Below are positions 11,495 through 28,587 of a stretch of DNA of 37,433 bases, one piece after another. How positions within the stretch are numbered: the stretch's first letter is position 1; every line of letters starts with the position of its first letter. This DNA is from a virus. A program made the position numbers and the translations under genes. The stretch is from the IMG/VR virus record IMGVR_UViG_3300025853_000014, positions 1 to 37,433 of that record; one strand, written 5' to 3'. Under the pieces are notes generated by a model. It saw only the letters and a list, made by a program, of their open reading frames with translations. It had not been told where the DNA came from and did not search any database.

Positions 11495-12067
11495 ATAGAA
11501 GAGTTTGCGAATAGTGGGATGGTTGAACGCTGCTGCGAGATACTATCTGCCGATGAAGATGTCGCGCAGGAGGTACACCTATCCATACTAGAGAAGTGCT
11601 TAAATAACGGCTCAGAATGGCTGTCTCAGCCTTGGTTAGAGGGGTATGTATACCGAATGTGCAGGAACATGGCTTACAACCTATCATCACCACTCAACGT
11701 AAAGAGACGGGTAAGGTTGCTAGAGGATCAAGATGCTATTATGCAGGACACCATAGATGACCTAGAGTGCATCTCGGACAGACTAGATGACCAAATTCTT
11801 CTTGCCGATGTTATGGAGTTTATAGATAAGCGAGTGCCGGGAGAGCCTGGATGGTATGAGAGGGCGATATTTTGGGGTTGGCTAGAGACGGGTTCTTACC
11901 GTAGCTTAGAGAAGGATATTATAGACCGAACAGGACACCGAATAAGCTATCAGAGTATTAGTGTAGTTGTTCGGGAGTTCATTAAAGAATTGGAAACATT
12001 ATGGCTACCCTCTAAGGGGTGGCGTAGAGTTAATGATAAATGGGTAAAAAGAAACTTAACGTATTAG
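11489..12067 (+). CDS. Sigma-70 family (ECF-like) transcription factor
   Basis: A 192-residue protein. Residues 21-74 resemble sigma region 2: ADEDVAQEVHLSILEK, then WLEGYVYRMCRNMAYNL, comparable to the conserved EDLVQEVFL and WLYRIARN signatures of ECF sigma factors. The second half is helical with a possible helix-turn-helix (SYQSISVVVREFIKELE) in the place of region 4, though it does not match that region closely. It is the first gene of the late region. I infer that it directs RNA polymerase to the late promoters (TTGACA...TTATAT) found downstream. An alternative is a DNA-binding protein of another class. Confidence 0.55.
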   Translation: MTIEEFANSGMVERCCEILSADEDVAQEVHLSILEKCLNNGSEWLSQPWLEGYVYRMCRNMAYNLSSPLNVKRRVRLLEDQDAIMQDTIDDLECISDRLDDQILLADVMEFIDKRVPGEPGWYERAIFWGWLETGSYRSLEKDIIDRTGHRISYQSISVVVREFIKELETLWLPSKGWRRVNDKWVKRNLTY

Positions 12068-13029: not shown

Positions 13030-13298
13030 GAAAGATCCTACACAATCGTAGAAAGAGACACGACCCGAACTATGTTCCGGTTAAACTAGAAACACGTAAA
13101 CGAGTACGACTATTCGTGGAAGAGGGTGCAGGGTGGCAAGGAACAGACGAAGAGGTGCAAACGCTCCGTAAGTTCTATCAAATAACCTTTAGGGATAATC
13201 CACCTGACTTCACAAATTGTGGTAAGTGTTTTTTGCGCTGCTGCAAGAGAATGCTTGAGTATTGGAAAGAGGAAAACAGGAAGAAATGGGAGGACTAA
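13020..13298 (+). CDS. Small Cys-rich basic protein, 92 aa
   Basis: A 92-residue basic protein with CGKCFLRCCKRM near the end, a possible metal-binding group of four Cys. N-terminal part RKILHNRRKRHDPNYVPVKLETRKRVRLF is strongly positive. It lies between two glycosyltransferase genes, overlapping one by ten bases and the other by one. No family recognised. Confidence 0.65.
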   Translation: MSVRKILHNRRKRHDPNYVPVKLETRKRVRLFVEEGAGWQGTDEEVQTLRKFYQITFRDNPPDFTNCGKCFLRCCKRMLEYWKEENRKKWED

Positions 13299-14029
13299 TG
13301 AGAGTCTTGGAATATGTTGAACAACACCCCGACTTTGCTCTAGGCAACTTTATACACCTCACCCCAACTCTGCGGTATCTGTCTGAGAAGAGGGGAATGA
13401 AGATTCCTGTCTTGTTTCGGACAGACTACGTTAAAGAGGCATTTCTTGATTGCCCGTTCATAGAGCATATTTACCGTCCGGGTAAAACCAGGATGTTTGG
13501 TAGTAACATAACCAATCAAGCGAACGACAGACCTGACTATGAATACATATTTCAGACCCTCACAGGTCGGATATGGAACAAATACTACCACACCTATGTA
13601 GATACCCCACCGCCCGTAGAAGAGGGCTTATATATCGTCATTGTGAATGGTGCGGGGAACACAAGTGAAAGATATGTTCAATCCAAAGACCCCGGTGCTA
13701 GTCCTTACATGATTGCTATGCAGAAATGTAGGACTATCGCTGTGGGTTCTCAAGAGGATTTTGATCGGTGTCCATACTTGTATGAGGCAGATAAGTTTGT
13801 GGTAGGAGATATGCGGTTAGCTTTATCTTACATACATGGTGCTAGAGCTGTTATTGCAAACGATACGGGGCTTTATCATGCTGCGGGTGCTATGAATGTG
13901 CCTACCCTTGCCTTGTGGAAAAATACGCTTAAAGAGCGGTGCAAGAATGCGGGAGTAAACACAGAGTATGCTTACGAGAATCACGACCTTGCTGTTGACA
14001 GATTCCTTACCAAACACTTATATATATAG
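13298..14029 (+). CDS. Glycosyltransferase, GT9/heptosyltransferase-like
   Basis: A 243-residue protein. HPDFALGNFIHLTPTLRYL at the N-terminus and AVIANDTGLYHAAGAMNVPTLALW near residue 200 match the first loop and the donor-binding motif of GT9 ADP-heptose:LPS heptosyltransferases. The start ATG at 13298 overlaps the previous stop (TAATG). The protein is shorter than bacterial GT9 enzymes, so a middle segment is reduced. Likely role: adding a sugar to a virion protein or altering a host glycan. Confidence 0.72.
   Translation: MRVLEYVEQHPDFALGNFIHLTPTLRYLSEKRGMKIPVLFRTDYVKEAFLDCPFIEHIYRPGKTRMFGSNITNQANDRPDYEYIFQTLTGRIWNKYYHTYVDTPPPVEEGLYIVIVNGAGNTSERYVQSKDPGASPYMIAMQKCRTIAVGSQEDFDRCPYLYEADKFVVGDMRLALSYIHGARAVIANDTGLYHAAGAMNVPTLALWKNTLKERCKNAGVNTEYAYENHDLAVDRFLTKHLYI
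13995..14023 (+). promoter_or_regulatory. Late promoter candidate a
   Basis: TTGACA at 13995-14000, 17-base spacer ending ACAC, TTATAT at 14018-14023. The gene at 14033 follows by nine bases. Best -35 match of the family. Confidence 0.65.
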
Positions 14030-14032
14030 AAG

Positions 14033-14371
14033 ATGATATTAACAGGTGGATTCATTAATTTCACACGTTGGCTTAAAGATCATAGCGCACAGGTTACTGT
14101 GGAGACTAACGAACTATCTACGTCCACTAAGCGAGAGCTTGGGGAACTTGGTGGGGAGTTTGTGTATTTCGCTATCAAGAAAGAGCCTTTTACCGCTACT
14201 GAACTTGAGGACTTGGATAAGCTCAAAGCTAGAACTGCCAAGACTAAATCCCTCAAGCTACGACAAACCATATTCCGACTATGGGAGTCTAGGGGTAGTG
14301 AGGGTTCATTCGATGAGTTCTATGCCGACAGAATGGATGAGATACTACATCAAGTAAGGGAACTAATATGA
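14033..14371 (+). CDS. Hypothetical protein before the small terminase, 112 aa
   Basis: A 112-residue soluble protein with a beta-rich N-terminal half (VTVETNELSTS, GGEFVYFAIKKEPF) and a helical C-terminus (SLKLRQTIFRLWESR, then DEFYADRMDEILHQVRELI). It is coupled to the small terminase gene by ATGA at 14368. It is the first gene after late promoter a. No family recognised; a packaging accessory role is plausible from position. Confidence 0.65.
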   Translation: MILTGGFINFTRWLKDHSAQVTVETNELSTSTKRELGELGGEFVYFAIKKEPFTATELEDLDKLKARTAKTKSLKLRQTIFRLWESRGSEGSFDEFYADRMDEILHQVRELI

Positions 14372-14901
14372 CCAAAAAGAACGGCAACTACGGCAAATGG
14401 AAAATGACAGGTAAGCGACTGCTTAACCATTGGGAGAAGTATGTATCTGACATGGAAACAGCTAGGGCTGAATTTCCTACTCCTAGAGGGGCTGTCGATT
14501 ACAACAAGAAGCGTGTGCCTCACTTGGGCTACTTCGTAAACAAATACCTCAAGGTTGCTCGGACTACTTTTGATAGGTGGTGCAGCAAAGAATGGATAAT
14601 GAAGTACGAGGACACTCCTGACAACAAATCCTACAACGCCTACGACTTCAAGAGAGCGAAGGCTTTATATGATGCTGCGACATTTGTTCGTGAGAGTTGC
14701 TTGAGTACTCTTGAGAACGGACTCGCTAACGGGGAAGGACACGCACAGGGCATTATGTTCAACATCAAGAACAACTGGGGCAAAGATCCTTCCCGTCATG
14801 TTGAGCAGAACACCGACCAAGAGGTAAAAGTAACGATTGTAGATGCAAGAAGTCGAGGTAAACAAGATATACCCGCAACTGACAAAGGCGTATCAGAGTA
14901 A
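14368..14901 (+). CDS. terS: Terminase small subunit
   Basis: A 177-residue protein directly before and overlapping the large terminase gene by 59 bases. Helical N-terminus, a possible helix-turn-helix (LKVARTTFDRWCSKEWI), then GIMFNIKNNWGKDPSRHVEQNTDQEVKVTIVD: the KNNWGW-like motif followed by a hydrophilic tail is typical of small terminase subunits, which recognise phage DNA and feed it to the motor. Confidence 0.8.
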   Translation: MTKKNGNYGKWKMTGKRLLNHWEKYVSDMETARAEFPTPRGAVDYNKKRVPHLGYFVNKYLKVARTTFDRWCSKEWIMKYEDTPDNKSYNAYDFKRAKALYDAATFVRESCLSTLENGLANGEGHAQGIMFNIKNNWGKDPSRHVEQNTDQEVKVTIVDARSRGKQDIPATDKGVSE

Positions 14902-16015
14902 GAAGCGTTTTTGTGTACAGCAGGGTGGAACTAGATCGGGAAAGTCATACAATATTCTCCTTTGGCTAATCTTTTGGTATTGCCATAAGTTCAATGGCAG
15001 ACTGATAACCATAACCCGTAATACGTCTCCTACGTTACGTAACACTATTATGCGCGACTTCTTTGAAATATTGGAGAATACGGGGAAGTACCAGGAGAAG
15101 TATCACAACAAGACTAATTGGGAGTATAAGCTGTTTGGCAACACCGTTCAGTTTCTTGCCGTGGATAGTGGACAGAAGATTCGTGGAGGCAAGAGGGATG
15201 TGCTTTTTATCAATGAGGCGAACGAGATCAGCTTAGATGCGTATCGTCAGTTAGACTTCCGTACTAAGGAGTTCATCATTATGGACTACAACCCGTCCGA
15301 GGCGTATCATTGGATATATGACTTGATCATAGACGATCCCGACTGTGCCTTCCATAAGACAACATACCTTGATAACCCTTGGTTGCCGGAGGCGCAAGTA
15401 AAAGTTATTGAGAAGCTGATGGAGACTGATGAGGCGTATTGGAAGATATACGGACTCGGAGAGAGGGCAGAGGTAGGTAACCTTGTATTCCCGTCTCACA
15501 GCACTACAGACTACATTCCACCCGATGCGGACTTTGTAGGGTATGGTATGGACTTCGGTTATTCCGTTGACCCTACTGCGCTCATCAAGGTTTACAGTCG
15601 TGGTGATGACCTGTACTTCAAGGAGGTGTTTTACCGCAACAAGATGTCGGGAGACTCGATCTGTGAGATGTTAATGGAGAATGAGGTTGACAGACATCAC
15701 ATTATCTATGCCGACCAAGCAGACCCTAGGCTTGTGGATCACATCAAAGGCAGAGGGTTTAACATAATTGGTGTGGGTAAAGGTAGAGACTCTATCCGAG
15801 GCGGGATAGACCTACTTAAACGTAAAAAGCTGTATATTCACGAAAGCTCTTCCAACTTAGTCTCAGAGTTTAGAATGTACAAGTGGAAAGAGGACAGAAA
15901 TGGCAAAGCAACTCAAGATCCTATTGACGGATGGAATCACGGGATTGATGCTATTCGTTATTGGGCATTAGGAGCATTAAAGAGGGCAAATTACGGTAGA
16001 TACAAATTCGGATGA
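14843..16015 (+). CDS. terL: Terminase large subunit
   Basis: A 390-residue packaging ATPase and nuclease. Walker A is GGTRSGKS (28-35), Walker B is DVLFINEA (119-126) with the catalytic Glu. The nuclease part has GMDFGY with Asp237, YADQADP with Asp291 and DGWNHGIDAIRYW with Asp369, the three acidic residues of the RNase H-like fold. The match is to the PBSX/Terminase_3 type. Adjacent genes on both sides carry sugar- and methyl-transferases. Confidence 0.95.
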   Translation: MQEVEVNKIYPQLTKAYQSKKRFCVQQGGTRSGKSYNILLWLIFWYCHKFNGRLITITRNTSPTLRNTIMRDFFEILENTGKYQEKYHNKTNWEYKLFGNTVQFLAVDSGQKIRGGKRDVLFINEANEISLDAYRQLDFRTKEFIIMDYNPSEAYHWIYDLIIDDPDCAFHKTTYLDNPWLPEAQVKVIEKLMETDEAYWKIYGLGERAEVGNLVFPSHSTTDYIPPDADFVGYGMDFGYSVDPTALIKVYSRGDDLYFKEVFYRNKMSGDSICEMLMENEVDRHHIIYADQADPRLVDHIKGRGFNIIGVGKGRDSIRGGIDLLKRKKLYIHESSSNLVSEFRMYKWKEDRNGKATQDPIDGWNHGIDAIRYWALGALKRANYGRYKFG

Positions 16016-16566
16016 TAAACATAAACCCAAAAGAATATTGGACTAAGCGTTACAACGAGGCAGGTGAGAATACTGTTTGGTTAAACAATAAGTACCAACC
16101 CGAAACGCACAAGATCCGCAAGGAGTTCTTGAAGGCAGGATTTCCTACGAATCAAATGGGAACTGTCTTGGACTTTGGCTGTGGTACAGGGGCTTACTCG
16201 GAGCTGTTTCACCCTGACCTATATATTGGGTACGACCACATGGAGAAAGCGATTGAGATAGCTAAGAGGAAGAACCCAAAGCATGATTACACCACATCTA
16301 AGACTCAGTATGGTTACTACACGCTTTTCACTAATTGTGTGTTACAGCATAACCCGCAAGATGTGGTTAAGGAGATACTGGACAGGTACGCTAAGAATAA
16401 GTGCGTGATTTTATACGAGTGTACGGATGAGAGTATTCAGAGTGGGCATTGTGAAGGTAGAAGCCCTGAGTGGTATAGTGAGGTGTTGGGCAGAGAGGTT
16501 GACAAGGTTTATTCGCACGTTATTGACGGCGCAGAACATAGTATGATGGTATGGTTGCAGCAATAA
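16012..16566 (+). CDS. SAM-dependent methyltransferase, class I
   Basis: A 184-residue protein with motif I VLDFGCGTG at 52-60, the acidic residue after strand 2 (YIGYDHMEKAIEIAKRK, Asp75), and a later strand CVILYECTD. It overlaps the terminase gene by ATGA and the next glycosyltransferase by 16 bases. Its order between glycosyltransferases suggests it may methylate a sugar or a protein; no DNA-methylase motif is seen. Confidence 0.8.
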   Translation: MININPKEYWTKRYNEAGENTVWLNNKYQPETHKIRKEFLKAGFPTNQMGTVLDFGCGTGAYSELFHPDLYIGYDHMEKAIEIAKRKNPKHDYTTSKTQYGYYTLFTNCVLQHNPQDVVKEILDRYAKNKCVILYECTDESIQSGHCEGRSPEWYSEVLGREVDKVYSHVIDGAEHSMMVWLQQ

Positions 16567-17264
16567 TGAATACGATCAATCGGAGTAACATCACTCCGAT
16601 GTGTACCGAGGAGAATATCACTCGTGCAGGGGTAGACTTTGATTTGTTTATCACAGATAACGGAAGTACTGACCCTAAGACAATAGAGTGGGGTAAGAAG
16701 ATTGCCAAGAAGCACACCGCTAATGAGTACAATATGGGTAATCCCTATGCACTCAATAGGATGATTGCCGACACCCTGGATTATGAGTTTATTGTCATCT
16801 TAGGTAACGATGTCCTACTCCCTGAGAATTGGCTAGTTAATGCCTTGGATGTGTTTGGCAAGATACCGAAAGTTGGTATGCTTGGGTGGATGCTAGAAGG
16901 CAGTAAACAGAAACACCGATTCAAGAAGAATGAAGTGGAGTTAGAAGTGGATGATACCAATGTTGTTATTGGCGCGACCATTCAACGGAGCGATGTGTTC
17001 AAGAAGATCGGATACCTAAACGAGTTCTCTAACTACGGGCATTGGGATGCGACATTCTGCCGTAGAGTGCAAGTTTGGTATGATTGTTTCTATATGCCAA
17101 GGAAGAGGGCGCACCACTTAGGCAACTTCCATGCAGAGGGGGACTTCGGTTATGCAGAAATGAAACAACAAGAGGCTGCGAAGGCTTGGGTTGAGGCAAA
17201 AGAGTGGCACGAGAAATATCACAAGAAGAAAGTATATCTAACACTAGATCAGAAAGTAATATGA
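16551..17264 (+). CDS. Glycosyltransferase, GT2-like (GT-A fold)
   Basis: A 237-residue protein with FITDNGSTD at 33-41, NMGNPYALNRMI at 61-72 and VILGNDVLLPENW at 82-94, which holds the Asp of the metal-binding DxD-like site. This is the layout of family 2 glycosyltransferases. It ends in an ATGA overlap with the tail chaperone gene. It is the third glycosyltransferase of the late region. Confidence 0.82.
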   Translation: MVAAIMNTINRSNITPMCTEENITRAGVDFDLFITDNGSTDPKTIEWGKKIAKKHTANEYNMGNPYALNRMIADTLDYEFIVILGNDVLLPENWLVNALDVFGKIPKVGMLGWMLEGSKQKHRFKKNEVELEVDDTNVVIGATIQRSDVFKKIGYLNEFSNYGHWDATFCRRVQVWYDCFYMPRKRAHHLGNFHAEGDFGYAEMKQQEAAKAWVEAKEWHEKYHKKKVYLTLDQKVI

Positions 17265-17845
17265 AAACTTGGAACGACATAACGATTGAGAAAGCAGAGG
17301 CTATCTTCTCTGCTGCTGAGAAACACGAACATCCAATAGCTAAACGTGCAGCTATTTACGCTGCTGCTATGGGTGAGGACTTTGACAAGCTATACAATAT
17401 GGGGTTGTCCGACTTTGAGTCTTACACGAAGGAATGGCGATTCCTAGACACCTCTCCGAGTAAGAAAGTGCCGAAAGAGTGGGATGGTTATGAGTTGACA
17501 GGTGATATTAAGGATCTGTCTGCTGGGCAACTTGTCGATATAGAGACTACCACTAAAGACGGTAAGAACACCCTGCATAGGGTTATGGCTCTCTTGTGGA
17601 AGAAAGATATGCCGCTTGACGAGAAGGAGAAGTATGTCAGGGAGAATATGCCTTACCCGATTGCTCGTGGAGTGCATGATTTTTTTTTGCGACGTTCGCT
17701 TCGTCTGCAAAGTCGTTTAGTAAGATATTTGGCTCTAAGGATGCGGACTCAACTGATGAAGCTCCGCCTTCAAATAGCTTTGGACAAGTTTTTCGGTGGT
17801 TTTCGTGGTTCAAGAAAATCGCGCAAACGTACAACTGCCGAATAG
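17261..17845 (+). CDS. Tail assembly chaperone, short (unshifted) form
   Basis: The 194-residue product of normal reading. The first 142 residues are helical and acidic (TIEKAEAIFSAAEKHEHPIAKRAAIYAAAMG, LSDFESYTKEW...EKYVRENMPYPIARGVHDFF). After the T-run at 17680-17688 the unshifted frame gives a Leu/Arg-rich sequence (RRSLRLQSRLVRYLAL) that looks like out-of-frame translation. The likely working long form is made by a -1 frameshift (next entry). In long-tailed phages such gene pairs encode the chaperones that coat the tape measure. The unshifted form could end here by chance. Confidence 0.6.
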   Translation: MKTWNDITIEKAEAIFSAAEKHEHPIAKRAAIYAAAMGEDFDKLYNMGLSDFESYTKEWRFLDTSPSKKVPKEWDGYELTGDIKDLSAGQLVDIETTTKDGKNTLHRVMALLWKKDMPLDEKEKYVRENMPYPIARGVHDFFLRRSLRLQSRLVRYLALRMRTQLMKLRLQIALDKFFGGFRGSRKSRKRTTAE

Positions 17846-17946
17846 ATGAGGTGTATGAGATGAAGGCACTAGAGTTTTTAAATTGGATCAACTACGAAAT
17901 ACACTTAGCGGAGGAAGAAGAAAGACGTGCCAAACAATCTCGATAA
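17261..17946 (+). CDS. Tail assembly chaperone, frameshift fusion, 228 aa
   Basis: If ribosomes slip back one base on T TTT TTT at 17680-17686, the product continues as FFFATFASSAKSFSKIFGSK, a linker (DADSTDEAPPSNSFGQ), then VFRWFSWFKKIAQTYNCRIDEVYEMKALEFLNWINYEIHLAEEEERR and stops at 17944-17946. The new C-terminus looks like real protein, and its length and charge pattern resemble the GT part of G/GT chaperones. The next gene starts within it, at 17927. A homopolymer sequencing error would give the same picture, so read support is needed. Confidence 0.65.
17680..17688 (+). other. Slippery T-run for -1 frameshifting
   Basis: Nine T in a row. In the zero frame they read GAT TTT TTT TTG; after a -1 slip on TTT TTT they lead into GCG ACG TTC and an open frame to 17946. 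The heptamer T TTT TTT fits the X XXY YYZ rule for tandem slippage. Confidence 0.7.
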
Positions 17947-18517
17947 TCTACACAAGTATCTCTCAGAGGCTATTGACGATGCCTTAGAGCGTGTTTCTCA
18001 TAATCTAGCCACAATGAAGGATAGCCGGGGTAATTCCCGTAGGGCTAGTGGTCGAACTGCCGAGAAGGTAATCTCCTACAATAATCGTGCGGTCAAGAGA
18101 AAGAAAGCGCAAATTAACGTAGATGTCACGATGCCTTCTCACTTGAAGTTCATCGACGAAGGTATTAAGGGTAGAGATTCTGTCAAGCCACACACAGGTT
18201 CTAGCCCGTTCCGTCAGAGGCGTATGCCGAACATTAATGCTATTTCCCGTTGGATCAGAGACGCGGGTTTATCTACCCCTGCCAAGTTTAAGAATCGTAG
18301 ACGTTTTGCCGGGGCTATTGCTGCGGGAATATTGAAACAAGGTATTGAGGCTGTGCCTGTTTACTCAAGCGTGTTCAACATGACGTTCTACGAGCAACTA
18401 GAAGAAGATCTTGCTAATATTGCTGCCCGTGATTGGGAAGGAGATATAGATGAAATGATCGAGAAAATGGTGGTGAATCTACAAGCCACCGGAATTGATG
18501 TGAGGTACAAACTTTAA
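17927..18517 (+). CDS. Putative tail completion / virion morphogenesis protein
   Basis: A 196-residue basic protein starting at GTG 17927, overlapping the chaperone fusion by 20 bases. It has a helical N-terminus, then RTAEKVISYNNRAVKRKKAQINVDVTMP, KFIDEGIKGRDSVKPHTGS and a helical C-terminus. The sequence style resembles HK97 gp10-type or other neck/tail-completion proteins of siphoviruses. The location after the tail chaperones and before the tail tip genes supports a tail role; exact family not certain. Confidence 0.5.
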   Translation: MPNNLDNLHKYLSEAIDDALERVSHNLATMKDSRGNSRRASGRTAEKVISYNNRAVKRKKAQINVDVTMPSHLKFIDEGIKGRDSVKPHTGSSPFRQRRMPNINAISRWIRDAGLSTPAKFKNRRRFAGAIAAGILKQGIEAVPVYSSVFNMTFYEQLEEDLANIAARDWEGDIDEMIEKMVVNLQATGIDVRYKL

Positions 18518-18732
18518 TCCCTCACCGTGCGAATTGTCTTGATGTTCGTGACTTCCCATTTGTCGAGTTGACCTTTCTTGCCTGACTTAGCGAATGCGTA
18601 TTCAAGCACCTTATCCTTATTGGCGAGTACTTCCTTCTCGTCTTTGGATGTTACTAGGGTGACGAGCAATGATGTTTTACCCGTACCTTTCTTCACCTTC
18701 TTGTGAAACCTTATTTCGTATTCGTAGAGCAT
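18514..18732 (-). CDS. Hypothetical protein, 72 aa (leftward cassette)
   Basis: A 72-residue basic protein: MLYEYEIRFHKKVKKGTGKTSLLVTLVTSKDEKEV with two strands, then a helix and a final strand. It is the last gene of a leftward cassette inside the otherwise rightward late region, and converges with the tail completion gene with a four-base overlap. No family recognised. The GTGKTS stretch looks like a Walker A fragment but lacks the rest of a P-loop protein. Confidence 0.6.
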   Translation of the reverse strand: MLYEYEIRFHKKVKKGTGKTSLLVTLVTSKDEKEVLANKDKVLEYAFAKSGKKGQLDKWEVTNIKTIRTVRD

Positions 18733-18733
18733 A

Positions 18734-18991
18734 TTATTCAAATACTATGTCATAAGACGCAATCATTTTATCTAAATCGACACGCCTAAAATTAATAATA
18801 AATCCCATATCTGCTAGTGTAATGAAATCCCCCTCATTAAACACAAATTCCAAATCTTTCTCTATGACAAGCAAGTCATTAAATATCCCACCAACCTCAA
18901 ACCCATTCGCATAAAGCTGCTGCAAATCCTCATCATTTACCTGTTTGTCATCCAACACATCGCTAAAAGGTATTACAAATCTTGATTTCAT
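18734..18991 (-). CDS. Hypothetical acidic protein, 85 aa (leftward cassette)
   Basis: An acidic 85-residue protein (LDDKQVNDEDLQQLYANG; FVFNEGDFITLADMGFII) starting at the ATG at 18991. Two operator-like sites lie about 50-100 bases upstream at 19041-19088, and a promoter-like box TTACTTTG reads leftward at 19020-19013. No family recognised. Confidence 0.6.
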   Translation of the reverse strand: MKSRFVIPFSDVLDDKQVNDEDLQQLYANGFEVGGIFNDLLVIEKDLEFVFNEGDFITLADMGFIINFRRVDLDKMIASYDIVFE

Positions 18992-19012
18992 AATGTTGTT
19001 TTTTATTGGGTT

Positions 19013-19020
19013 CAAAGTAA
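19013..19020 (-). promoter_or_regulatory. Candidate -7 box for the 18991 gene
   Basis: Reads TTACTTTG on the minus strand, the same variant as at 2266-2273 before the replication operon; each lies downstream of TGACA-N6-TGACA-type sites. One mismatch to TAnnTTTG and no clear -33 element, so it is tentative. Confidence 0.35.
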
Positions 19021-19029
19021 GTGGCTAAA

Positions 19030-19092
19030 CAACACTATTGTATCATAGAAGTGTCATAAAACAACACTATTGTGTCATAGAATTGTCATAAA
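19030..19092. repeat. Two tandem 32-base repeats carrying operator-like sites
   Basis: Copies begin CAACACTATTGT at 19030 and 19062. Each holds one 5-N6-5 site: 19041-19056 (TATCA-N6-TGTCA) and 19073-19088 (TGTCA-N6-TGTCA). The duplication gives two operators in register upstream of the 18991 gene; the second overlaps the stop codon of the VRR-NUC gene. Confidence 0.75.
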
Positions 19093-19350
19093 CTCTTCAA
19101 GTGTGTGTATTACTGCGTATTGCCCTTTCCACTTGTCCTGGAACTCAATCTCGTCAGTTGTGAGTTTGCGTTGACTAGGTGGCTTATCGGGATCTTTAAT
19201 CTCAAGAAGGTAGTTGACCCCACGATACCCTACGACAATATCCGGGAATCCACTACCTAACTGAGACGTTATTGCGACACTACAGCCTATGCTGCGTAAT
19301 TCTTTGACAAGCTGACGTTGGTTGCTATCAACCCTTCCTCGCTTTCTCAC
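19075..19350 (-). CDS. VRR-NUC type nuclease, 91 aa
   Basis: Starting at GTG 19350 the protein reads VRKRGRVDSNQRQLVKELRSIG, then SGFPDIVVGYRG with Asp37, YLLEIKD with Glu50 and Lys52, then LTTDEIEFQDKWKGQYAVIHTLEEF. That is the whole catalytic core of the small phage VRR-NUC (PD-(D/E)XK) family, which cleaves branched or structured DNA. A TTG at 19368 would add six codons, but these overlap the promoter box and are not needed. First gene of the leftward cassette. Confidence 0.78.
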   Translation of the reverse strand: MRKRGRVDSNQRQLVKELRSIGCSVAITSQLGSGFPDIVVGYRGVNYLLEIKDPDKPPSQRKLTTDEIEFQDKWKGQYAVIHTLEEFMTIL

Positions 19351-19379
19351 TTGACAAATATACAACAAAACACTTATAT
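19351..19379 (+). promoter_or_regulatory. Late promoter candidate f, before a noncoding region
   Basis: TTGACA at 19351-19356, 17-base spacer ending ACAC, TTATAT at 19374-19379. The predicted start near 19386 has no gene until 19734, so this promoter would make the structured noncoding transcript. Its -35 overlaps the leftward -7 box at 19355-19362. Confidence 0.6.
19355..19362 (-). promoter_or_regulatory. -7 box for the VRR-NUC gene
   Basis: Reads TATATTTG on the minus strand, a full match to TAnnTTTG. The transcript start would be at or next to the GTG at 19350, that is a leaderless mRNA. Confidence 0.55.
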
Positions 19380-19385
19380 AAGTAC

Positions 19386-19718
19386 AGATTATTTAGAAAT
19401 TAGTGTATATTTGCATAAATAGGCTCGTAGTCGTTCCATCCGAAGCGACAATAAAAAATCGGAATACAAGAAACACGAGATAGGTAGAAGCATCTACTCA
19501 GGGTGAGGGCGAGGAGCAATGCTACGGCAGCAACTCCAAGGTCATCTAAGTAAGTCTAAGCCCACAGAGTAACGTCAAAGAGAGAGGGGAGAGGTAAGCC
19601 CCGATCCACCTAGAAGGTATGACCTACGAATTGTTGCTTTTGCTCGACACCTGTAACGGGTGTACAGGCTCTCGGTAGAGATGACCTATAAGCCGAGCTG
19701 CACAAATTTCCGTCTTAA
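19386..19718 (+). ncRNA. Candidate structured noncoding RNA, about 330 nt
   Basis: No gene lies here, yet the stretch follows late promoter f and contains many short, well-formed hairpins in the sense strand: GTAGA 19484-19488 with TCTAC 19493-19497; GGAG 19513-19516 plus TGCT 19520-19523 with AGCA 19529-19532 plus CTCC 19534-19537; GGGG 19586-19589 with CCCC 19599-19602; ACACC 19647-19651 with GGTGT 19659-19663; CAG plus CTCGG 19665-19675 with CCGAG plus CTG 19693-19700. A host-type box TATATTTG at 19406-19413 is a possible second start. GGCTCG at 19422-19427 could pair with CGAGCT at 19694-19699 and compete with the last hairpin. I do not recognise the family; it could also be a long 5' leader for the tail gene. 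Confidence 0.5.
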
Positions 19719-19727
19719 CACTTATAT
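19699..19727 (+). promoter_or_regulatory. Late promoter candidate b, tail gene
   Basis: TGCACA at 19699-19704 (weak -35), 17-base spacer ending ACAC, TTATAT at 19722-19727. Seven bases after the -10 lies 19734, the A of the start codon of the tail gene. Confidence 0.6.
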
Positions 19728-19733
19728 ATATGT

Positions 19734-21086: not shown

Positions 21087-23995
21087 TCGTAATTGGAGGG
21101 CAGATAATCAATGCGGAAGTAGACGAACCCGTAGTAATCACAAAAGAGATTGCGCCACTAGAGGACATAAGCTCTAGGACTGGGTTCTACTCTAAGACAT
21201 TTAGCATAGTAGGTGATACTGAGGCGAATAAAGTCTTTAACCACCTATTCGACACGAACATTATCGTTCAGAATACGTCAACAGAGAACTTCACACCGGA
21301 CTTTAACCCGAACCTAAAGGCTAGTTTTCAGCATTGGGTAGATGATTTGGTCACGTTCCAAGGGTTCTGTAAGCTAGATAACATAACTATTGAGGACGAG
21401 AAGGTGGTGTATCACTTGACTGCGTTCGGTGGTGCGGGTGAGTTCTTTGAAGAGGTGGGCGAGAAGAGATTGGGGGACTTAGACATTTCAGCGTACAACC
21501 ACTCTTTCACGAGGGCAAATGTGGTGGCATCCTGGTCAAACGACTATACAGACGGATACGTGTACCCGATGATTGATTACGGGCATAAGTATCAGCGTAA
21601 TTGGTGGAGTTGGACAGAGTTCAGACCCGCAGTATTTGTTAAAGCGGTTTGGGATCAGATATTTACAGAGGCGGGGTGGAGTTACGAATCCACATTCCTA
21701 TCTACGGATAACTTCGAGAAGTTAATAATACCTAGTCCTAGTGCATCCGTAAAGCTAACCAATAGCGAGATAAATGACCTCACATTTACGGTAGCTAATG
21801 ACGCTCCTTTCAGTATCCCGAACAGTAGGGATCTCAGTCTAGCAACCCCGTTCGAATTCCCGCTAGATACGGGGTCTTTACTTGCGAACGTCTTACAGAA
21901 CACATCGGGAACAGAGTGGGATACCTCTAGTTACGATTACACAGCGGCAGGGGATGTGACTTGTGCGTTTAGAATAAAATTCATTGCAGACGTGGAGTAC
22001 GTTGGGGCTAGTCCAATATCTTCCGTAGGGGCGGTTAGGGCTAAGTTCTCTATAATAAGGAATAGAGGGGGTGTATATAGAAGACTTGAGACATTTGAGA
22101 TAGGCAACTACTTCACATTTACATTCTTTTCAACCACACTATCAGCGGGTAGCACTTCAACAAATACCGAGGACATAAACTTAACAACCTCAGAGCATGA
22201 CATAGAGGATGGTGACATTATTTTTGTATCGCTGACAGATATAGAAATTCAAACAGTTGGGGGTGCGGGTATGGCTATATCTGGCATAGACGGTGATTGG
22301 AATATAAATGTACAAGCTGGGTCGCTTTTTGGGAACGTGGTAAATCCCACCATGAAGAATGGGCAGACGGTGACATTGGCGAGAGCTATACCGGATTGGA
22401 CTCAGCGTGAGTTTATGCGAAACATCTCTAAGATGTTCAACCTATACATTGAGCAAACAGGGGATAGAACCTTACTTATAGAGCCTAGAGATGAGGGTTA
22501 CTTGCAGTCAACTAAGGAGGATTGGACAGATATACTCGCATACGACAAGGAGCGCAAAATCACTCCAATGGGAGAGTTGAACAAGAAGGAGTATTACTTC
22601 ACATGGAATGAGGATGATGATATATGGAACACCATATATACGGATTCATGGGATGGCGATATATACGGAGACAAGCGCGTGTATGTCAACAACGACTTTC
22701 AGACGGATGTAGAAGAGATTAAGCTAGATTTTGCCCCTACGGTTTTGTCAAACTCGAAGGCGGGTAATATACCAAACAACAGGGTGATCTCAGATATGTC
22801 CTTCTATAAGGATGATGGTCTACCCGAAATTCAAGAGGCGAAGCCGAGAATCATTTACTATGGCGGTTTGATAAGTGGAGATCCTTGGACGTTAGTGAAT
22901 GGAAACCAAGTGGGAGCAGCTACGGATGTAATATACACCACATACCCGTATGCGGGGCATTTAGACAACCCGATCACACCAACGTATGACTTCCTGTGGT
23001 TCTTCCCGAAGAACATATTTTACAACAGAGCTTATGGGTCTTCGGATTACCCACAATACCCAAACAGGAATCTATATACCCTGTATTGGTATCGGTTCAT
23101 CCAGGAAATAACTGACAAAGACTCAAAGATATTTGAGGGGTGGTTCGACTTGAGCTATTACGATTGGGTAAACCTGTCATTCAGAAAGCTATACCATTTC
23201 CTTGATGCAGATTGGAGGCTTGTAAGTGTGAGTGACTATGATCTCGAAAAAGGAGGGCTAACATACTGCAAGTTCCTCAAAGCAGGGGCGTGGGTGAATC
23301 CAACCTATGACCGATACAAACTCAATACGGGTTACGGAGAGACGGATGATAACGGAGACACTTTGCCATTCATATATAGGGGTGAGGGGAGTGGTGGCAA
23401 CAAATTCCCACAAGAGAAAGATTGGGGTGACGGGAATACTATAGGTGGTCGGGTCGGTTTTGTGTATGGCGATGCTAACTTAATAGGCACAGGGACTGCT
23501 GGTTTTGCATTAATGAACGCATCTGGGAACAATGTCCAGGCTAGTGGTGCTGTGCTGATAAACACCGATGGCAGAGATGTTTTTAGAGATAATGAAGTTT
23601 GGATCAACGACATAAACTACGAGAGGTATCAAGAGTTCACTTTCGATAATAGCGTATTCAATACGTTGGCGGCAACGCCTATACAGTTCTTACCCGACTT
23701 AGAGGACAACCAATTCTACGACATAACTAGAATCACAGAGAAGCTGGACTATGACGGAACTGCCTATGCGGACGGGGGTGTGCGAATAATTAAGACGGTT
23801 ACATCGGGAACTACGCTTGGAACACTTGTGGGGTCTATGACGGGAACGGCAGATGCGGTTTATTACTCTTCACTAACGCCTCCACTATCACCCGACTTAG
23901 GTGAGGGCGTAGAGATTATGGTTGATTCAACAGAGTTTACGGGTAGTGGGGGTGATGTGACTTACAGAGTTTATTACAGAATAATCGAGACATAA
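21083..23995 (+). CDS. Tail tip / baseplate protein (Tal-like), 970 aa
   Basis: A 970-residue protein with an N-terminal region typical of Bacteroidota phage tail tips: EDISSRTGFYSKTFSIVGDT, FNPNLKASF, YNHSFTR, VYPMIDYGH and AVFVKAVWDQIFTEAGW. A beta-rich centre and a Gly-rich C-terminus (VGFVYGDANLIGTGTAGF, then GSGGDVTYRVYYRI) follow. No peptidase motif is visible. It probably forms the tail tip that contacts the cell and extends toward the fibres. It is immediately before the tape measure gene (TAATG overlap). Confidence 0.65.
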   Translation: MIVIGGQIINAEVDEPVVITKEIAPLEDISSRTGFYSKTFSIVGDTEANKVFNHLFDTNIIVQNTSTENFTPDFNPNLKASFQHWVDDLVTFQGFCKLDNITIEDEKVVYHLTAFGGAGEFFEEVGEKRLGDLDISAYNHSFTRANVVASWSNDYTDGYVYPMIDYGHKYQRNWWSWTEFRPAVFVKAVWDQIFTEAGWSYESTFLSTDNFEKLIIPSPSASVKLTNSEINDLTFTVANDAPFSIPNSRDLSLATPFEFPLDTGSLLANVLQNTSGTEWDTSSYDYTAAGDVTCAFRIKFIADVEYVGASPISSVGAVRAKFSIIRNRGGVYRRLETFEIGNYFTFTFFSTTLSAGSTSTNTEDINLTTSEHDIEDGDIIFVSLTDIEIQTVGGAGMAISGIDGDWNINVQAGSLFGNVVNPTMKNGQTVTLARAIPDWTQREFMRNISKMFNLYIEQTGDRTLLIEPRDEGYLQSTKEDWTDILAYDKERKITPMGELNKKEYYFTWNEDDDIWNTIYTDSWDGDIYGDKRVYVNNDFQTDVEEIKLDFAPTVLSNSKAGNIPNNRVISDMSFYKDDGLPEIQEAKPRIIYYGGLISGDPWTLVNGNQVGAATDVIYTTYPYAGHLDNPITPTYDFLWFFPKNIFYNRAYGSSDYPQYPNRNLYTLYWYRFIQEITDKDSKIFEGWFDLSYYDWVNLSFRKLYHFLDADWRLVSVSDYDLEKGGLTYCKFLKAGAWVNPTYDRYKLNTGYGETDDNGDTLPFIYRGEGSGGNKFPQEKDWGDGNTIGGRVGFVYGDANLIGTGTAGFALMNASGNNVQASGAVLINTDGRDVFRDNEVWINDINYERYQEFTFDNSVFNTLAATPIQFLPDLEDNQFYDITRITEKLDYDGTAYADGGVRIIKTVTSGTTLGTLVGSMTGTADAVYYSSLTPPLSPDLGEGVEIMVDSTEFTGSGGDVTYRVYYRIIET

Positions 23996-25767
23996 TGGCG
24001 AAACTGAAAGAGATAACGCTAAAAATGGTCGTTGACAATGAGGGCAACGTCCAAAGCCTTGATGCCACAACTCGAGCGATGAAACGTGCCGAGAAACAAG
24101 TCAAGAAACTTAATAAGGAAACAGAAGAAAGTACATCTAATCTCGGCAAACAAAGCAAGGCTACAAATCTAGCAGGGCAGTCGGCTTTAGAGATGTCTCG
24201 TATCGCTTCGGACGCGGCTTACGGCATGAGGGGGATGGCAAACAACATTGGTCAGGTTGCTACGATGATGGGAGAGCTTTCAAAACAGGCACCAAAAGGA
24301 ATAAACGCTATGGGCAGATTGCAGTTTATGGGGAGGGAGCTTGGTGCGGCACTAATGGGACCGATGGGGGTTATAGTCGCAATACAGGGGCTATTGTCGC
24401 TATTGACAATATGGGAGTCTCGAACAAATAAGCAGGCTGAAGCTCAGAAGTCTTTAAATGAGGCGTTGCAGGAAAGCATAGTGTCGATTGATGAAAGGCG
24501 AGCCAAGATAGAGGCATTGATAAGTCAGATGGACGATAGTGACCCTCTCGAAATATTTGACCCAGAAGTAGCTAGACAAGCAATGAAAGAGCTAGAGAAG
24601 GAGATTCCTAACTTTAAAAAGCTGCAAGAAAGGTTCACCGATGACGAAATAGCCAAGAAGTATACGGAATACTTAGAGAACATGAAGCGAGAGGGTATTG
24701 AGGCTAAGAGGGTGGCAAAATATAGAGAAGAATTAAATAAGATTAAGGCTAAGGGTGAAGATATGTCTTTGGTCGAAGCCGAAAGGTGGAAAGAATTAAA
24801 GAATGAGTTAATTCCAGAAGCGCAGAGAGCGTTGGAGACTTACCAATTCCTCAGATTGAAGGGGGAGCAGCTTTTCGGAAAACAGAATGGTGGTAAAGCT
24901 AAAAAACGCGGGTATGTGGTGGAATTTTACGGAAAGCCTGCGGGTGAAATATTGCTAGAGGCAAAGCAATTTAATGATGCCTTAATAGCACTACAAACCG
25001 ATGCTGTAACTGAGTGGGAGGAGAAAGAGAAGGCAAGAATCAAGGAATTCTACTCAGGACTTATGGCTGAGTCAATGGAAGGCACTACTATATCAGAGGA
25101 GCAAATAGCCCAACTACAAGCTGATGAATTAGCTGCCCTAGATATTGTGGAGCAACAGGCTATTGATAAAAGGGAAATGCTATGGCAGGATCACCTAGAC
25201 TGGATGGCTGAAAAGGATGCGGAGTTTGTCAAACGACAAAGGGAAACAGATGAAAAAGCCTTAAAATTGATGATGGAGGATTTTAACAATCGCATAGAAA
25301 AGCAACAATTCTTCACATCAGCTATTGGAGCTATAATGGCAAATAGTATAGAGTTTATAGGCGGGTTAGCTGAAAAGAACACTAAGAACGAGGAAAGGCT
25401 ATTCAAGATACAGAAGCAAGTAGCGATAGCCACCACTATCATAGACACAATAGTTGCAGCACAGAGGGCATACACAAGCCAACTAAATCCTCTTGATCCA
25501 ACATCAATAGTAAAAGCTAAGATAGCTGCTGCTGTTGCTATAACGGCAGGTATGGCTAGAGTCGCTGCAATAAGAGCTCAGAAGCTACCATCAAAAACAA
25601 CTGACTCTGTTTCTGCCGAAGGTACAATGCCTGTAACAACAACAGGGTTCTCAAACCTAAGTGGCGGGGAAACACCAGGTTCAGCAGTCAGAGTATATGT
25701 TTTAGAGCATGACATCCGAACAACCACAGACAAGGTGAGCAAGACTAAGGTTCGCTCCCGACTCTAA
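23995..25767 (+). CDS. Tape measure protein
   Basis: A 590-residue protein with a long coiled-coil N-terminus (LDATTRAMKRAEKQVKKLNKETEE), an Ala/Met-rich hydrophobic stretch (GAALMGPMGVIVAIQGLLSLLTIW) at about 120-142, more coiled coil, a second hydrophobic region around 440-530 and a Ser/Thr-rich C-terminus. These are features of tape measure proteins, which set tail length; at about 0.15 nm per residue this predicts a tail near 90 nm. It lies after the distal tail genes, a reversed order compared with lambda. Confidence 0.8.
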   Translation: MAKLKEITLKMVVDNEGNVQSLDATTRAMKRAEKQVKKLNKETEESTSNLGKQSKATNLAGQSALEMSRIASDAAYGMRGMANNIGQVATMMGELSKQAPKGINAMGRLQFMGRELGAALMGPMGVIVAIQGLLSLLTIWESRTNKQAEAQKSLNEALQESIVSIDERRAKIEALISQMDDSDPLEIFDPEVARQAMKELEKEIPNFKKLQERFTDDEIAKKYTEYLENMKREGIEAKRVAKYREELNKIKAKGEDMSLVEAERWKELKNELIPEAQRALETYQFLRLKGEQLFGKQNGGKAKKRGYVVEFYGKPAGEILLEAKQFNDALIALQTDAVTEWEEKEKARIKEFYSGLMAESMEGTTISEEQIAQLQADELAALDIVEQQAIDKREMLWQDHLDWMAEKDAEFVKRQRETDEKALKLMMEDFNNRIEKQQFFTSAIGAIMANSIEFIGGLAEKNTKNEERLFKIQKQVAIATTIIDTIVAAQRAYTSQLNPLDPTSIVKAKIAAAVAITAGMARVAAIRAQKLPSKTTDSVSAEGTMPVTTTGFSNLSGGETPGSAVRVYVLEHDIRTTTDKVSKTKVRSRL

Positions 25768-25768
25768 T

Positions 25769-25798
25769 TAGACAGATAGCCGTACATAGCACTTATAG
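25769..25798 (+). promoter_or_regulatory. Late promoter candidate c, protease gene
   Basis: TAGACA at 25769-25774, 18-base spacer ending GCAC, TTATAG at 25793-25798. The A of the start codon is at 25805, seven bases after the -10. Confidence 0.55.
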
Positions 25799-25804
25799 TT
25801 ATGT

Positions 25805-26425
25805 ATGGACAATATACCAATTTTCGACATTGTATTTGATGAGGTGAATGGTGGAGTAAATACTGTGAGTCTCGTTTCTAGCCCTGCTATGGAGAGCGCA
25901 TGGTTGGCATTTAATCACAGCACAGCTCAATACAAACTGCAATCAGAGGAGAAACGCTTAATCTTAGGAGCGTTACTGATTCCCGACAAGCTGGTTCTTA
26001 GACGAGACGATTCGGGCAACCCGTTCTTCATACGCTTTAGTAAGGATGTAATCGAGAAGACTGTCTACAAGTACTTCAAGACATCTAAGACAAACAACAC
26101 GAATGCGGAGCATGACCAGGAGTGGACACTTGACGGTGTTTATATGGTAAGCTCTTTCATTAAGGATAGCTCTATGGGTATCAATCCTCCTGTGGAACTT
26201 CAAGATCACCCGGACGGGACTTGGTTCGGAATGTTCAGAGTAGAGGATGATGAGGTTTGGGAAAGATACATCAAGGAAGGCGTATTCACAGGGTTCAGCA
26301 TTGAGGGCATCTACTCTCTAGCAGACACGGGCGAGTCCGCATCGTTGGCAATGAGCAAGGAGGATAAGGAGCTAGAAGAACTAGCTGATATGATCTTGAG
26401 CAAATTAGACACTTTAGTAGACTAA
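25805..26425 (+). CDS. Prohead protease, XkdF-like (Peptidase_S78_2 type)
   Basis: A 206-residue protein: VSSPAMESAWLAF, then LILGALLIPDKLVLRRDDSGNPFFIRFSKDVIEK, NAEHDQEW, VYMVSSFIKDSSMG, PDGTWFGMFRVEDDEVWERYIKEGVFTGFSIEG. This sequence order matches XkdF-like proteins, small serine-protease-like head maturation proteases. The HD in NAEHD fits the conserved His. It lies before the scaffold and capsid genes, as expected for a maturation protease. Confidence 0.75.
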   Translation: MDNIPIFDIVFDEVNGGVNTVSLVSSPAMESAWLAFNHSTAQYKLQSEEKRLILGALLIPDKLVLRRDDSGNPFFIRFSKDVIEKTVYKYFKTSKTNNTNAEHDQEWTLDGVYMVSSFIKDSSMGINPPVELQDHPDGTWFGMFRVEDDEVWERYIKEGVFTGFSIEGIYSLADTGESASLAMSKEDKELEELADMILSKLDTLVD

Positions 26426-26435
26426 TCACTTATAT
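26406..26435 (+). promoter_or_regulatory. Late promoter candidate d, scaffold gene
   Basis: TAGACA at 26406-26411, 18-base spacer ending TCAC, TTATAT at 26430-26435. The start codon of the scaffold gene is at 26443, eight bases after. Confidence 0.55.
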
Positions 26436-26442
26436 AGATAGA

Positions 26443-26844
26443 ATGGAAGAAAAAAAGAACAAGCTACTCGCCTTCTTGAAGTCACTCGTTTCTGAGGAGA
26501 CTGTAGAGGAAGTCGAGGTGGAGGCTTCCACAGAGGAAACTCCCGAAGCTGAAACAGACGAAACTCCAAGCGCGGAAGCAGATGCTCTCAATAAGCTCTC
26601 TGAGACAGTTGCTGCACTCGCTGAGAAGGTAGAAGGGTTTGAAGCAAGACTTTCTGAGGTTTCTAAGGAGCGTGACGAAGCGAAAGCTGAGAACGCAGAA
26701 ATCAAAGAACAAGCTGCTGAACTACTTGCAGAAATGAGCAAAGTTCCTGCGGTAGAAACTCCTGCAAAGACACCTTCGACTAAGGAGATGACACGAGCAG
26801 AGAGAGCAATCGCAATGGGTAACGTACTACTTAAAAAGAAATAA
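26443..26844 (+). CDS. Scaffold-like protein, 133 aa
   Basis: A Glu/Ala-rich, largely helical protein (AEADALNKLSETVAALAEKVEGFEARLSEVSKERDEAK) with a coiled-coil centre and a basic C-terminus. Such proteins between a protease and the major capsid gene are usually scaffolds that are degraded during head maturation. The acidic Thr-rich N-terminal region agrees. No exact family. Confidence 0.7.
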   Translation: MEEKKNKLLAFLKSLVSEETVEEVEVEASTEETPEAETDETPSAEADALNKLSETVAALAEKVEGFEARLSEVSKERDEAKAENAEIKEQAAELLAEMSKVPAVETPAKTPSTKEMTRAERAIAMGNVLLKKK

Positions 26845-26846
26845 CA

Positions 26847-27794
26847 ATGTCATTTGACGTATCATCATTAACGAATTATGTGGATCAGTCCTCAACGGAA
26901 TTGCTCCACCGCCTATATTTCGAGGGGACTACACAAGAGTATGTGAGTTTCCAAACGGGCGTAAAACACAAAGATGCTTTGCAGCTCTTCGATCTTACTG
27001 CATATCCGCAGGACGATAGTTGCTCAAACACAGCATCAGGATCAACCACTTTCACACAGGCAGAAATCACAGTTGTAGGTATCAAGTACTTCGACTCTCT
27101 TTGCCCTATCGACTTGGAAGCTAAATGGACTCAGAACTTGCTCCGTCAAGGTGCTAACGCACAGCAAGAGTCTTTGACTTTCGAGGAAGATGTAGCGATG
27201 GGAATCTTGTCTTTGGTACAAGAGAACAACGAGACTGTAATTTGGCAAGGTAACGATGCGGGTTCTAACACAGACCCTATCACCAACAAATTCGATGGCT
27301 TTATGCAGCTTATCGACGATGCGGGTACAGCAACAGCCGGTAACACCAACTCAGTATCAGCTATTTCTGCTACTGCTTCGGATAACACCAACGCTGTAAC
27401 AATCGTAAACGCAATGATTGATGCTCGTCCGGCTCGACTGAGACGTAAGCAAAATCAAGTATTGTTCTGTGGAACTGACACGTTTGACAAGTGGGTAACT
27501 GCACAGATCGCCCAAAACAACTTCCACATTGACCAAACTCAATGGGTGAACTACTCGGTTCAAATCCCTGGCAAGAATGTCACTTTGGTGGGTGTTCACG
27601 GTCTTGACGGAACGAACCGAATGGTTCTTGGGCAGACAAGCAACTTCTACATTGGAGTTGACGGAATGAATGACCATGAGGTATTCGACATTTGGTACTC
27701 CAAAGACGATGACGTAATCTACTACAAGGTTCGTTTCAAACTTGGTGTTCAAATCGCTCGTATTGCTGACTTGGTTGAGTTTACATTATCTTAA
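26847..27794 (+). CDS. Major capsid protein
   Basis: A 315-residue protein directly after protease and scaffold. Features: SLTNYVDQSSTELLHRLYFEGTT at the N-terminus, a beta-rich middle with YFDSLCPIDLEAKWTQ and TFEEDVAMGILSLVQEN, then a C-terminus with VRFKLGVQIARIADLVEF. The order and the alternating segments are consistent with HK97-like capsid proteins. No processing motif is recognised. Confidence 0.78.
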   Translation: MSFDVSSLTNYVDQSSTELLHRLYFEGTTQEYVSFQTGVKHKDALQLFDLTAYPQDDSCSNTASGSTTFTQAEITVVGIKYFDSLCPIDLEAKWTQNLLRQGANAQQESLTFEEDVAMGILSLVQENNETVIWQGNDAGSNTDPITNKFDGFMQLIDDAGTATAGNTNSVSAISATASDNTNAVTIVNAMIDARPARLRRKQNQVLFCGTDTFDKWVTAQIAQNNFHIDQTQWVNYSVQIPGKNVTLVGVHGLDGTNRMVLGQTSNFYIGVDGMNDHEVFDIWYSKDDDVIYYKVRFKLGVQIARIADLVEFTLS

Positions 27795-27807
27795 TAGAAT
27801 CTGAATT

Positions 27808-28329
27808 ATGGCTTGTGAATTAACAACCGGTGTAAGCGTTGGGTGTAAGGACTCAGCGGGTGGAATCAAGGAGGTGTACTTTGCTAATAAAAGTAACGTC
27901 TCAGGAATCTCTGTGACTGCCGATGGAACTGTGTCGGGGATCACTAACAGCGGTAGTTGGTACAAATACGAGCCTCGCAATGCTACTTCGGCAATGATGG
28001 ATAACCCACAGGTTAATCGTCAGAACGGAACGGCATTCTATCAACAAGGTGTAAACTTAGTTCTCACCAAGATGGAACAAGCTAAACGCAACGAGATCAT
28101 CCTCCTTGCTAAAGCGAATATGCATATCATTGTGAAGGATCAGAACGATAAGTACTGGCTACTTGGGCAAGATAATGGAATGGAGATGGAGAACTCTGAG
28201 GTAGGAACGGGTACAGAATTAGGGGACAGAAACGGGTACACCCTCAACTTCGAGGGGAAAGAGCCTGAACCTGCTCCTGAGATTCAGTATGCTGCTTTCA
28301 GCGCAGATGTCTCAGTCACACAAATCTAG
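27808..28329 (+). CDS. Putative major tail tube protein, 173 aa
   Basis: A 173-residue beta-rich protein starting MACELTTGVSVGCKDSAGGIKEVYFANKSN, with GCKDSAGGIKEVYF and later WLLGQDNGMEME and GTELGDRNGYTLNFEGKEP. I recall similar short proteins in Bacteroidota phages as tail tube or virion proteins. It follows the capsid gene and is followed by a terminator. The tail chaperone and tape measure genes are far upstream, which is unusual. Confidence 0.6.
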   Translation: MACELTTGVSVGCKDSAGGIKEVYFANKSNVSGISVTADGTVSGITNSGSWYKYEPRNATSAMMDNPQVNRQNGTAFYQQGVNLVLTKMEQAKRNEIILLAKANMHIIVKDQNDKYWLLGQDNGMEMENSEVGTGTELGDRNGYTLNFEGKEPEPAPEIQYAAFSADVSVTQI

Positions 28330-28352
28330 TCATCACTCTCATATATCGGTAG

Positions 28353-28381
28353 AAGCCCCTCTTTGGGGCTTTTACTTTTTT
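28353..28381 (+). terminator. Rho-independent terminator after capsid and tail tube genes
   Basis: AAGCCCC (28353-28359), loop, GGGGCTT (28365-28371), then a T-rich tract. It ends the transcript that begins at the scaffold or protease gene. Confidence 0.88.
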
Positions 28382-28408
28382 ATGACACTTCGTATTGTTT
28401 TTTGTTCG

Positions 28409-28416
28409 TATATTTG
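28409..28416 (+). promoter_or_regulatory. -7 box before the small noncoding RNA
   Basis: TATATTTG matches TAnnTTTG. There is no start codon with a good frame downstream before the terminator at 28530; the transcript would begin near 28422. Confidence 0.55.
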
Positions 28417-28421
28417 CGATA

Positions 28422-28558
28422 TAAAGTTATTTAAATCTAAGTTTTTAGGCGGGTATTAACGAATAACAAACTTGGGGAAGCGACTTATTTTTCACCACCC
28501 GCCAAAATATTGTTTCATGTTGTGTTTTGAGCCTCGGCAGAAATGTCGGGGCTTTTTT
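28422..28558 (+). ncRNA. Candidate small noncoding RNA with a pseudoknot, about 137 nt
   Basis: Between the box at 28409 and the terminator at 28530 no gene is present. GTTATT at 28426-28431 can pair with AATAAC at 28462-28467, and GGCGGGT at 28448-28454 with ACCCGCC at 28497-28503; their order on the strand (1-2-1-2) makes an H-type pseudoknot. A 9-base-pair hairpin with T-run closes it. Promoter, compact fold and terminator are what one expects for an independent RNA. Family not recognised. Confidence 0.6.
28530..28558 (+). terminator. Terminator of the small noncoding RNA
   Basis: AGCCTCGGC (28530-28538), six-base loop, GTCGGGGCT (28545-28553) with a T-G and a G-T pair, then T to 28558. 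It lies directly before late promoter e. Confidence 0.9.
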
Positions 28559-28587
28559 GTGACACTTTTGCCACTTAACACTTATAT
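28559..28587 (+). promoter_or_regulatory. Late promoter candidate e, before the portal gene
   Basis: GTGACA at 28559-28564, 17-base spacer ending ACAC, TTATAT at 28582-28587. The start codon A is at 28594, seven bases after the -10. The spacer end and the -10 region are nearly the same as in promoter b. Confidence 0.6.

Follow-up and report, generated by a model that had tools for sequence, protein, structure and literature searches.

In phage T4 the sigma-like subunit gp55 redirects the host core polymerase to the late genes, whose promoters consist of a single TATAAATA box and work with a sliding-clamp co-activator. Phages phiEco32 and 7-11 encode a divergent sigma factor, a distant relative of the sigma-A family; their structural genes have promoters that are specific to the phage, and bacterial promoters serve the others (PMC4331800). 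The phiEco32 consensus is the 9-nt TAATGTATA, and the promoter motifs of the two phages are similar, but not identical (PMC4331800). The promoters of Bacteroidota sigma-A take the form TAnnTTTG/TTTG (PMC6847099, PMC7366714, PMC9723704). The control of late transcription in phages of this phylum seems to be little described: literature searches on Bacteroidetes, Flavobacterium and Bacteroides phages yielded only a general review of jumbo phages.

Here we analyse the viral record IMGVR_UViG_3300025853_000014, all 37,433 nt of which we call the window. Judging from its genes for terminase, portal, protease and capsid, it is a tailed phage related to phages of Bacteroidota. Among named records, Bacteroides and Flavobacterium phages have the closest terminases, and the protease and portal match only the Nonlabens phages P12024S/L (Inhavirus), with only about 27-34% identity between the portal and protease of P12024S and those of the window. 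The close relatives in IMG/VR are fragments. The host phylum is probably Bacteroidota; since a scan of the capsid protein against bacterial genomes found no relative, this assignment is limited to the TAnnTTTG promoters and the Bacteroidota-phage relatives. We show that the window carries six similar sites, for which a phage-specific class of late promoter is a well-supported and very probable identity, judging from sequence comparisons.

Six sites on the late strand

All six sites lie on the late strand, to the right of position 13,990:

13995 to 14023, plus strand: late promoter 1, TTGACA-N17-TTATAT, heads the packaging operon, of which ORF 14033 is the first gene
19351 to 19379, plus strand: late promoter 2, TTGACA-N17-TTATAT, followed by a noncoding region and no gene
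19699 to 19727, plus strand: late promoter 3, TGCACA-N17-TTATAT, before ORF 19734 (tail)
25769 to 25798, plus strand: late promoter 4, TAGACA-N18-TTATAG, before the head maturation protease ORF 25805
26406 to 26435, plus strand: late promoter 5, TAGACA-N18-TTATAT, before the scaffold-like ORF 26443
28559 to 28587, plus strand: late promoter 6, GTGACA-N17-TTATAT, before ORF 28594

An earlier note on this DNA had listed the same six sites, and each is present where it was reported, with a spacer of 17 nt (13995, 19351, 19699 and 28559) or 18 nt (25769 and 26406). Its consensus of TTGACA-N17/18-TTATAT stands in the spacing; the full TTGACA is found at only two of the six sites, and the invariant upstream part is ACA (6/6). 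Downstream the core CACTTATA is common to all six, giving NNNACA-N17/18-TTATA(T/G) as the best-fitting form. Five sites do precede late genes, e.g. the protease ORF 25805, which matches Peptidase_S78_2 (2e-15), and site 19351 does precede a noncoding region. One detail needs correction: site 28559 is not directly before the portal gene, which comes second in its operon after a gene of 122 aa. Site 13995 falls within the 3′ end of ORF 13286-14029, and is therefore also under coding constraint.

Two boxes can arise by chance when their choice is free, and one may suspect a coincidence of AT-rich composition picked out by eye. However, in a search of both strands ACA-N14/15-CACTTATA occurs six times on the plus strand and never on the minus strand, against a mean of 0.05 and a maximum of 1 in 200 dinucleotide shuffles. 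This comparison with shuffled genomes had been proposed in the earlier note, and it returned a strand-specific motif. We also counted all 8-mers, allowing one wildcard at most, without reference to the sites (6,049 patterns tested), and CACTTATA showed the strongest enrichment in the 24 nt upstream of ORFs (5/9 copies, p=4e-8). It occurs without the upstream box at 6764 (plus strand), 11104 (minus) and 35937 (minus). The MEME-like motif discovery by EM, likewise proposed, did not recover the six-site motif from the upstream regions and yielded only weak or A-rich motifs, which speaks for a coincidence and is the reason why a k-mer enrichment test was used. Set against the unbiased enrichment, the count of six where 0.05 is expected, and the independent prediction of the sites by a matrix from a sister phage (see below), a coincidence is extremely improbable.

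None of the six sites came up in a generic sigma-70 scan, whose total matches were fewer than in shuffles; the sites are missed because TTATAT fails the rule of the scan. We also tried to read the -10 as a degenerate TAnnTTTG, with TATATATG at some sites, and rejected this because the remaining sites lack the form whereas CACTTATA does not vary.

Conservation and layout of the sites

L006 and L117 are fragments from the same sample that appear to belong to a single sister phage, with 65-71% DNA identity to the window. Four of the five gene-preceding sites can be checked in it, and all four are conserved: the counterpart of 13995 is at 2758 in L006, and those of 19699, 25769 and 26406 are at 1446, 7493 and 8124 in L117. 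Site 19351 is not conserved in L117. We trained a weight matrix solely on these four orthologous sister sites, a set that holds no counterpart of 28559 or 19351. Among about 75,000 positions the six sites of the window take ranks 1-6, with scores of 24.5-17.2 and 13.5 for the next position; site 19351 ranks second. Every site held out in leave-one-out tests ranks 1 to 7 (28559 is fifth), and in the reverse scan of the sister genome the four sister sites rank top.

The boxes are far better conserved between the two phages than the spacers. Across the orthologous pairs identity is 22/24 in the -35 and 33/36 in the core, compared with 33/54 in the remaining spacer and 51/120 over the 30 nt before the sites, part of the identity at the sites being coding constraint because two of the four overlap the end of the upstream gene. 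The distal -35 bases differ in one sister pair (TGCACA to AACACA), and the sites show no within-species variation, bar one change just before the core.

The distance from the end of TTATAT or TTATAG to the ATG is 6 nt for ORFs 19734, 25805 and 28594, 7 nt for ORF 26443 and 9 nt for ORF 14033. These start codons are fixed by N-termini that are conserved between the window and the sister phage from the ATG on, e.g. MALTVQTD, MEEKKNKL/MEDKKNKF and MILTGGF. Transcription usually starts about 7 nt past the -10 hexamer, and the spacing therefore predicts leaders of 0-3 nt, so that the late messages are probably leaderless or nearly so. Leaderless messages are rare in Bacteroidota: they make up 5.5% in F. 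psychrophilum (PMC9723704), leaders below 10 nt account for 3.7% in B. thetaiotaomicron (PMC7366714), and leaders above 10 nt for 87% in F. johnsoniae (PMC6847099). The messages of Bacteroidota hosts are thus mostly leadered, in contrast to the near-leaderless form predicted for the late messages of this phage.

The sites also have neighbours that bear on their role:

19406 to 19413, plus strand: host-type TATATTTG, which lies downstream of late promoter 19351 and where a possible noncoding RNA starts
28348 to 28376, plus strand: second terminator-like hairpin, at the end of the major-capsid operon
28529 to 28554, plus strand: intrinsic-terminator-like hairpin and T run, whose end lies 4 nt from promoter 28559

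At the corresponding place in four relatives (G003, G006, G012 and G014) we read a terminator-like hairpin with a T run, followed by a lineage-specific motif and a start codon, which in G003, G012 and G014 belongs to the orthologue of ORF 28594. The terminator before 28559 and the start-codon spacing are both additions to the earlier note.

With five of six sites directly before start codons, one could also see in them elements that act on the RNA or DNA level, such as translation enhancers, repressor operators, or packaging or replication signals. We regard this as very unlikely: each site pairs two boxes, 17/18 nt apart, around a spacer that has diverged, a terminator directly adjoins one site, for which an element acting in translation would have no need, and another site precedes no gene. 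Promoters remain our preferred reading.

The noncoding region holds some features of its own. The possible noncoding RNA (19406-19698, plus strand) begins at the host-type TATATTTG, with late promoter 19351 just upstream. Its 5′ part, about 70 nt, resembles the opposite strand of the same locus in L117, with a local score of 51 (null maximum 34.5), or 38 (null maximum 36.5) without the promoter. An Rfam scan of the window gave no match. On the minus strand a host-type TATATTTG (19362; window 19355-19386) overlaps late promoter 19351 and faces ORF 19075-19368, and ACTTATATAAGT within this promoter is a perfect palindrome. A further host-type TATATTTG, at 28409 between the two terminators (28377-28554), could yield a short RNA of about 140 nt.

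In more distant relatives the orthologous genes are preceded by other motifs. This cross-lineage comparison is a reading of upstream regions; for the window, P12024S and G003 the unbiased count, too, has the motifs among its top patterns. G003 has AACACCNCCCTATTA(C/T) or a near form at six places, and its AACACCNCCCTATTAC lies before the orthologues of the tail, protease, scaffold and 28594 genes of the window, for which the orthologue support is 3.9e-9, 2.2e-35, 0.0046 (weak) and 1.2e-5, respectively. The orthologue of ORF 19734 in this genome thus has a different motif in the same place as promoter 19699. In genomes G004-G009 the motif is TTGACA-N14-TTTATATTATA, a close variant or a TTATATTTTA form, and it often stands 4-9 nt upstream of the ATG; G012 carries TTTATACTTAC. 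In P12024S the motif CGTTA(A/C)TA is found 4 nt upstream of the ATG of six genes, and CGTTAATA is the top enriched upstream 8-mer (5/7, p=9e-9). In descriptive terms, the type of sigma and the type of promoter seem to match across lineages.

Two side observations concern these genomes. The late motifs of P12024S (L054) lie back to back with small minus-strand genes, with overlapping upstream regions, around 2980-3031, 5365-5412, 23927-23961 and 25135-25201; three of these four loci have a host-type TATATTTG. The terminase large subunit of G009 (L063, 3123-4329) is split over two frames, with an in-frame TGA; this is a metagenome contig, and the split may be an assembly or sequencing error.

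A candidate reader of the late promoters

The proposed reader is encoded upstream of the sites:

11465 to 11472, plus strand: host-type -7 element TATATTTG, before the sigma-like gene
11489 to 12067, plus strand: ECF-type sigma-like protein, 192 aa, the proposed reader of the late promoters

ORF 11489-12067 has no direct match in Pfam, PHROG or PDB, sigma families included, and we call it sigma-like rather than a family member because neither Sigma70_r2 nor r4 matches directly. By profile and synteny it is homologous to, and in the same gene position as, proteins that do match the sigma family. The profile of the window and L006 proteins aligns with that of the syntenic proteins of L075 and G003 (hhalign, E=1.8e-5, probability 78%), and these two match PHROG 1740 'RNA polymerase sigma factor' at 6.7e-5 and 5.9e-6, respectively. 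The gp33 protein of P12024S matches Sigma70_r2 at 1.4e-5, above the curated cut-off. With a seven-protein profile the best PDB matches are SigW and sigma-H (E=0.01), and sigma-H is still first (0.03) with a four-protein profile that excludes gp33. AlphaFold models from 6 and 7 sequences are poor (pLDDT 65 and 57), the second alignment consisting of rows from related loci without the P12024S row; with these low-confidence models Foldseek places ECF sigmas first for one (E 0.4-2), and not for the other. A direct search for sigma factors in annotated phages found nothing.

The sigma-like gene lies upstream of the terminase in P12024S (gp33), G003, G006, G009 and L006, and a related glycosyltransferase is encoded directly 3′ of it in the window, L006, G003 and L075. 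In these last four the gene is also preceded by TAnnTTTG, as TATATTTG in the window, L006 and G003 and as TAAATTTG in L075; none was seen in the 100 nt upstream of the gene in G006 and P12024S. In both sister phages a four-codon ORF (ATGACAAAGAAATGA, window 11478-11492; ATGACAATAAAATGA, L006 about 105-122) ends on the ATGA that starts the sigma-like gene, a possible case of translational coupling.

We propose that host RNA polymerase with the Bacteroidota sigma-A, which uses TAnnTTTG, would first transcribe the sigma-like gene. The phage sigma would then redirect the host core polymerase to the six late promoters, switching on the packaging, tail, protease, scaffold and neck/portal operons, with transcription starting at the start codon or at most about 3 nt from it. 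A scan of early and late proteins revealed no RNA polymerase, and we infer that the core polymerase at these sites, if they are active as predicted, is the host's. The earlier note had the sigma-like protein directing polymerase to the sites; the syntenic sigma genes, the profile match and the lineage-varying promoters speak for this, the missing direct match speaks against it, and on balance such a reader is likely.

It could also be the host that reads these promoters, using its sigma-A or one of its ECF sigmas, possibly aided by an activator or co-factor from the phage. A -35 TTG with an AT-rich -10 is not far from host promoters, and TTGACA-N14-TTTATATTATA of G004-G009 somewhat resembles TAnnTTTG. 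However, the core CACTTATA is outside the host consensus, TAnnTTTG is absent at the sites, the motifs before orthologous genes vary by lineage, contrary to what one would expect of a conserved host sigma, and the relatives have a dedicated sigma-like gene in a syntenic position. We find reading by a host sigma unlikely. That these promoters are of a non-host class, as first suggested, is borne out by the absence of TAnnTTTG, and supported by the statistics, the cross-species matrix, the conserved footprint and the terminator-promoter layout. The best explanation overall, and one that is quite likely to be right, is NNNACA (-35)-N17/18-(CAC)TTATAT (-10) read by a phage sigma. The lack of conservation of site 19351 in the sister phage and the changed distal -35 bases of one sister pair weigh against it.

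Comparison with described systems

A wider proposal, for which the case seems to us evenly balanced, is that a private sigma/promoter pair has been re-coded again and again among the Inhavirus-like phages of Bacteroidota, such that the heads of the late operons keep their promoters, the sequences of both sigma and promoter change with each lineage, and the late messages are leaderless. If true, nature would have produced a series of sigma-promoter pairs that are orthogonal to one another. E. coli promoters fail in Bacteroidota, and the system, if right, would offer orthogonal expression parts for this phylum as well as a case of rapid change in a sigma factor and its promoters. Translation in Bacteroidota does without Shine-Dalgarno sites, and leaderless late genes would probe how their ribosomes start translation. 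The predicted sigma and its six predicted promoters are directly testable, and an isolated relative, P12024S, exists.

This relative resembles the window in having a sigma-70 region 2 protein (gp33) upstream of the terminase and a motif of its own before the ATG, and differs in that this motif is unlike that of the window; no description of its late promoters was found in the literature searched. With Bacteroidota sigma-A the late promoters likely share the core polymerase, and the TAnnTTTG form stands upstream of the phage sigma-like gene, whereas TAnnTTTG at -7 is absent from the late sites. The likeness to T4 gp55 is that a sigma-like phage subunit is proposed for the late genes. Unlike T4 the window has a second upstream box, and clamp coupling is not known there. 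The likeness to the phiEco32 type, drawn from its published description, is a proposed divergent phage sigma with promoters of its own before structural genes, bacterial promoters for other genes, and promoter motifs that resemble each other in related phages without being identical. There a single 9-nt consensus is used, whereas the window has two boxes at 17/18 nt and a different host phylum; its start codons come directly after the promoter, and no anti-sigma factor was identified in it. A phage sigma factor with late promoters is already known from T4, and from phiEco32 and 7-11 (PMC4331800). The new parts are the host phylum, the spacing to the start codon and the change of motif from lineage to lineage.
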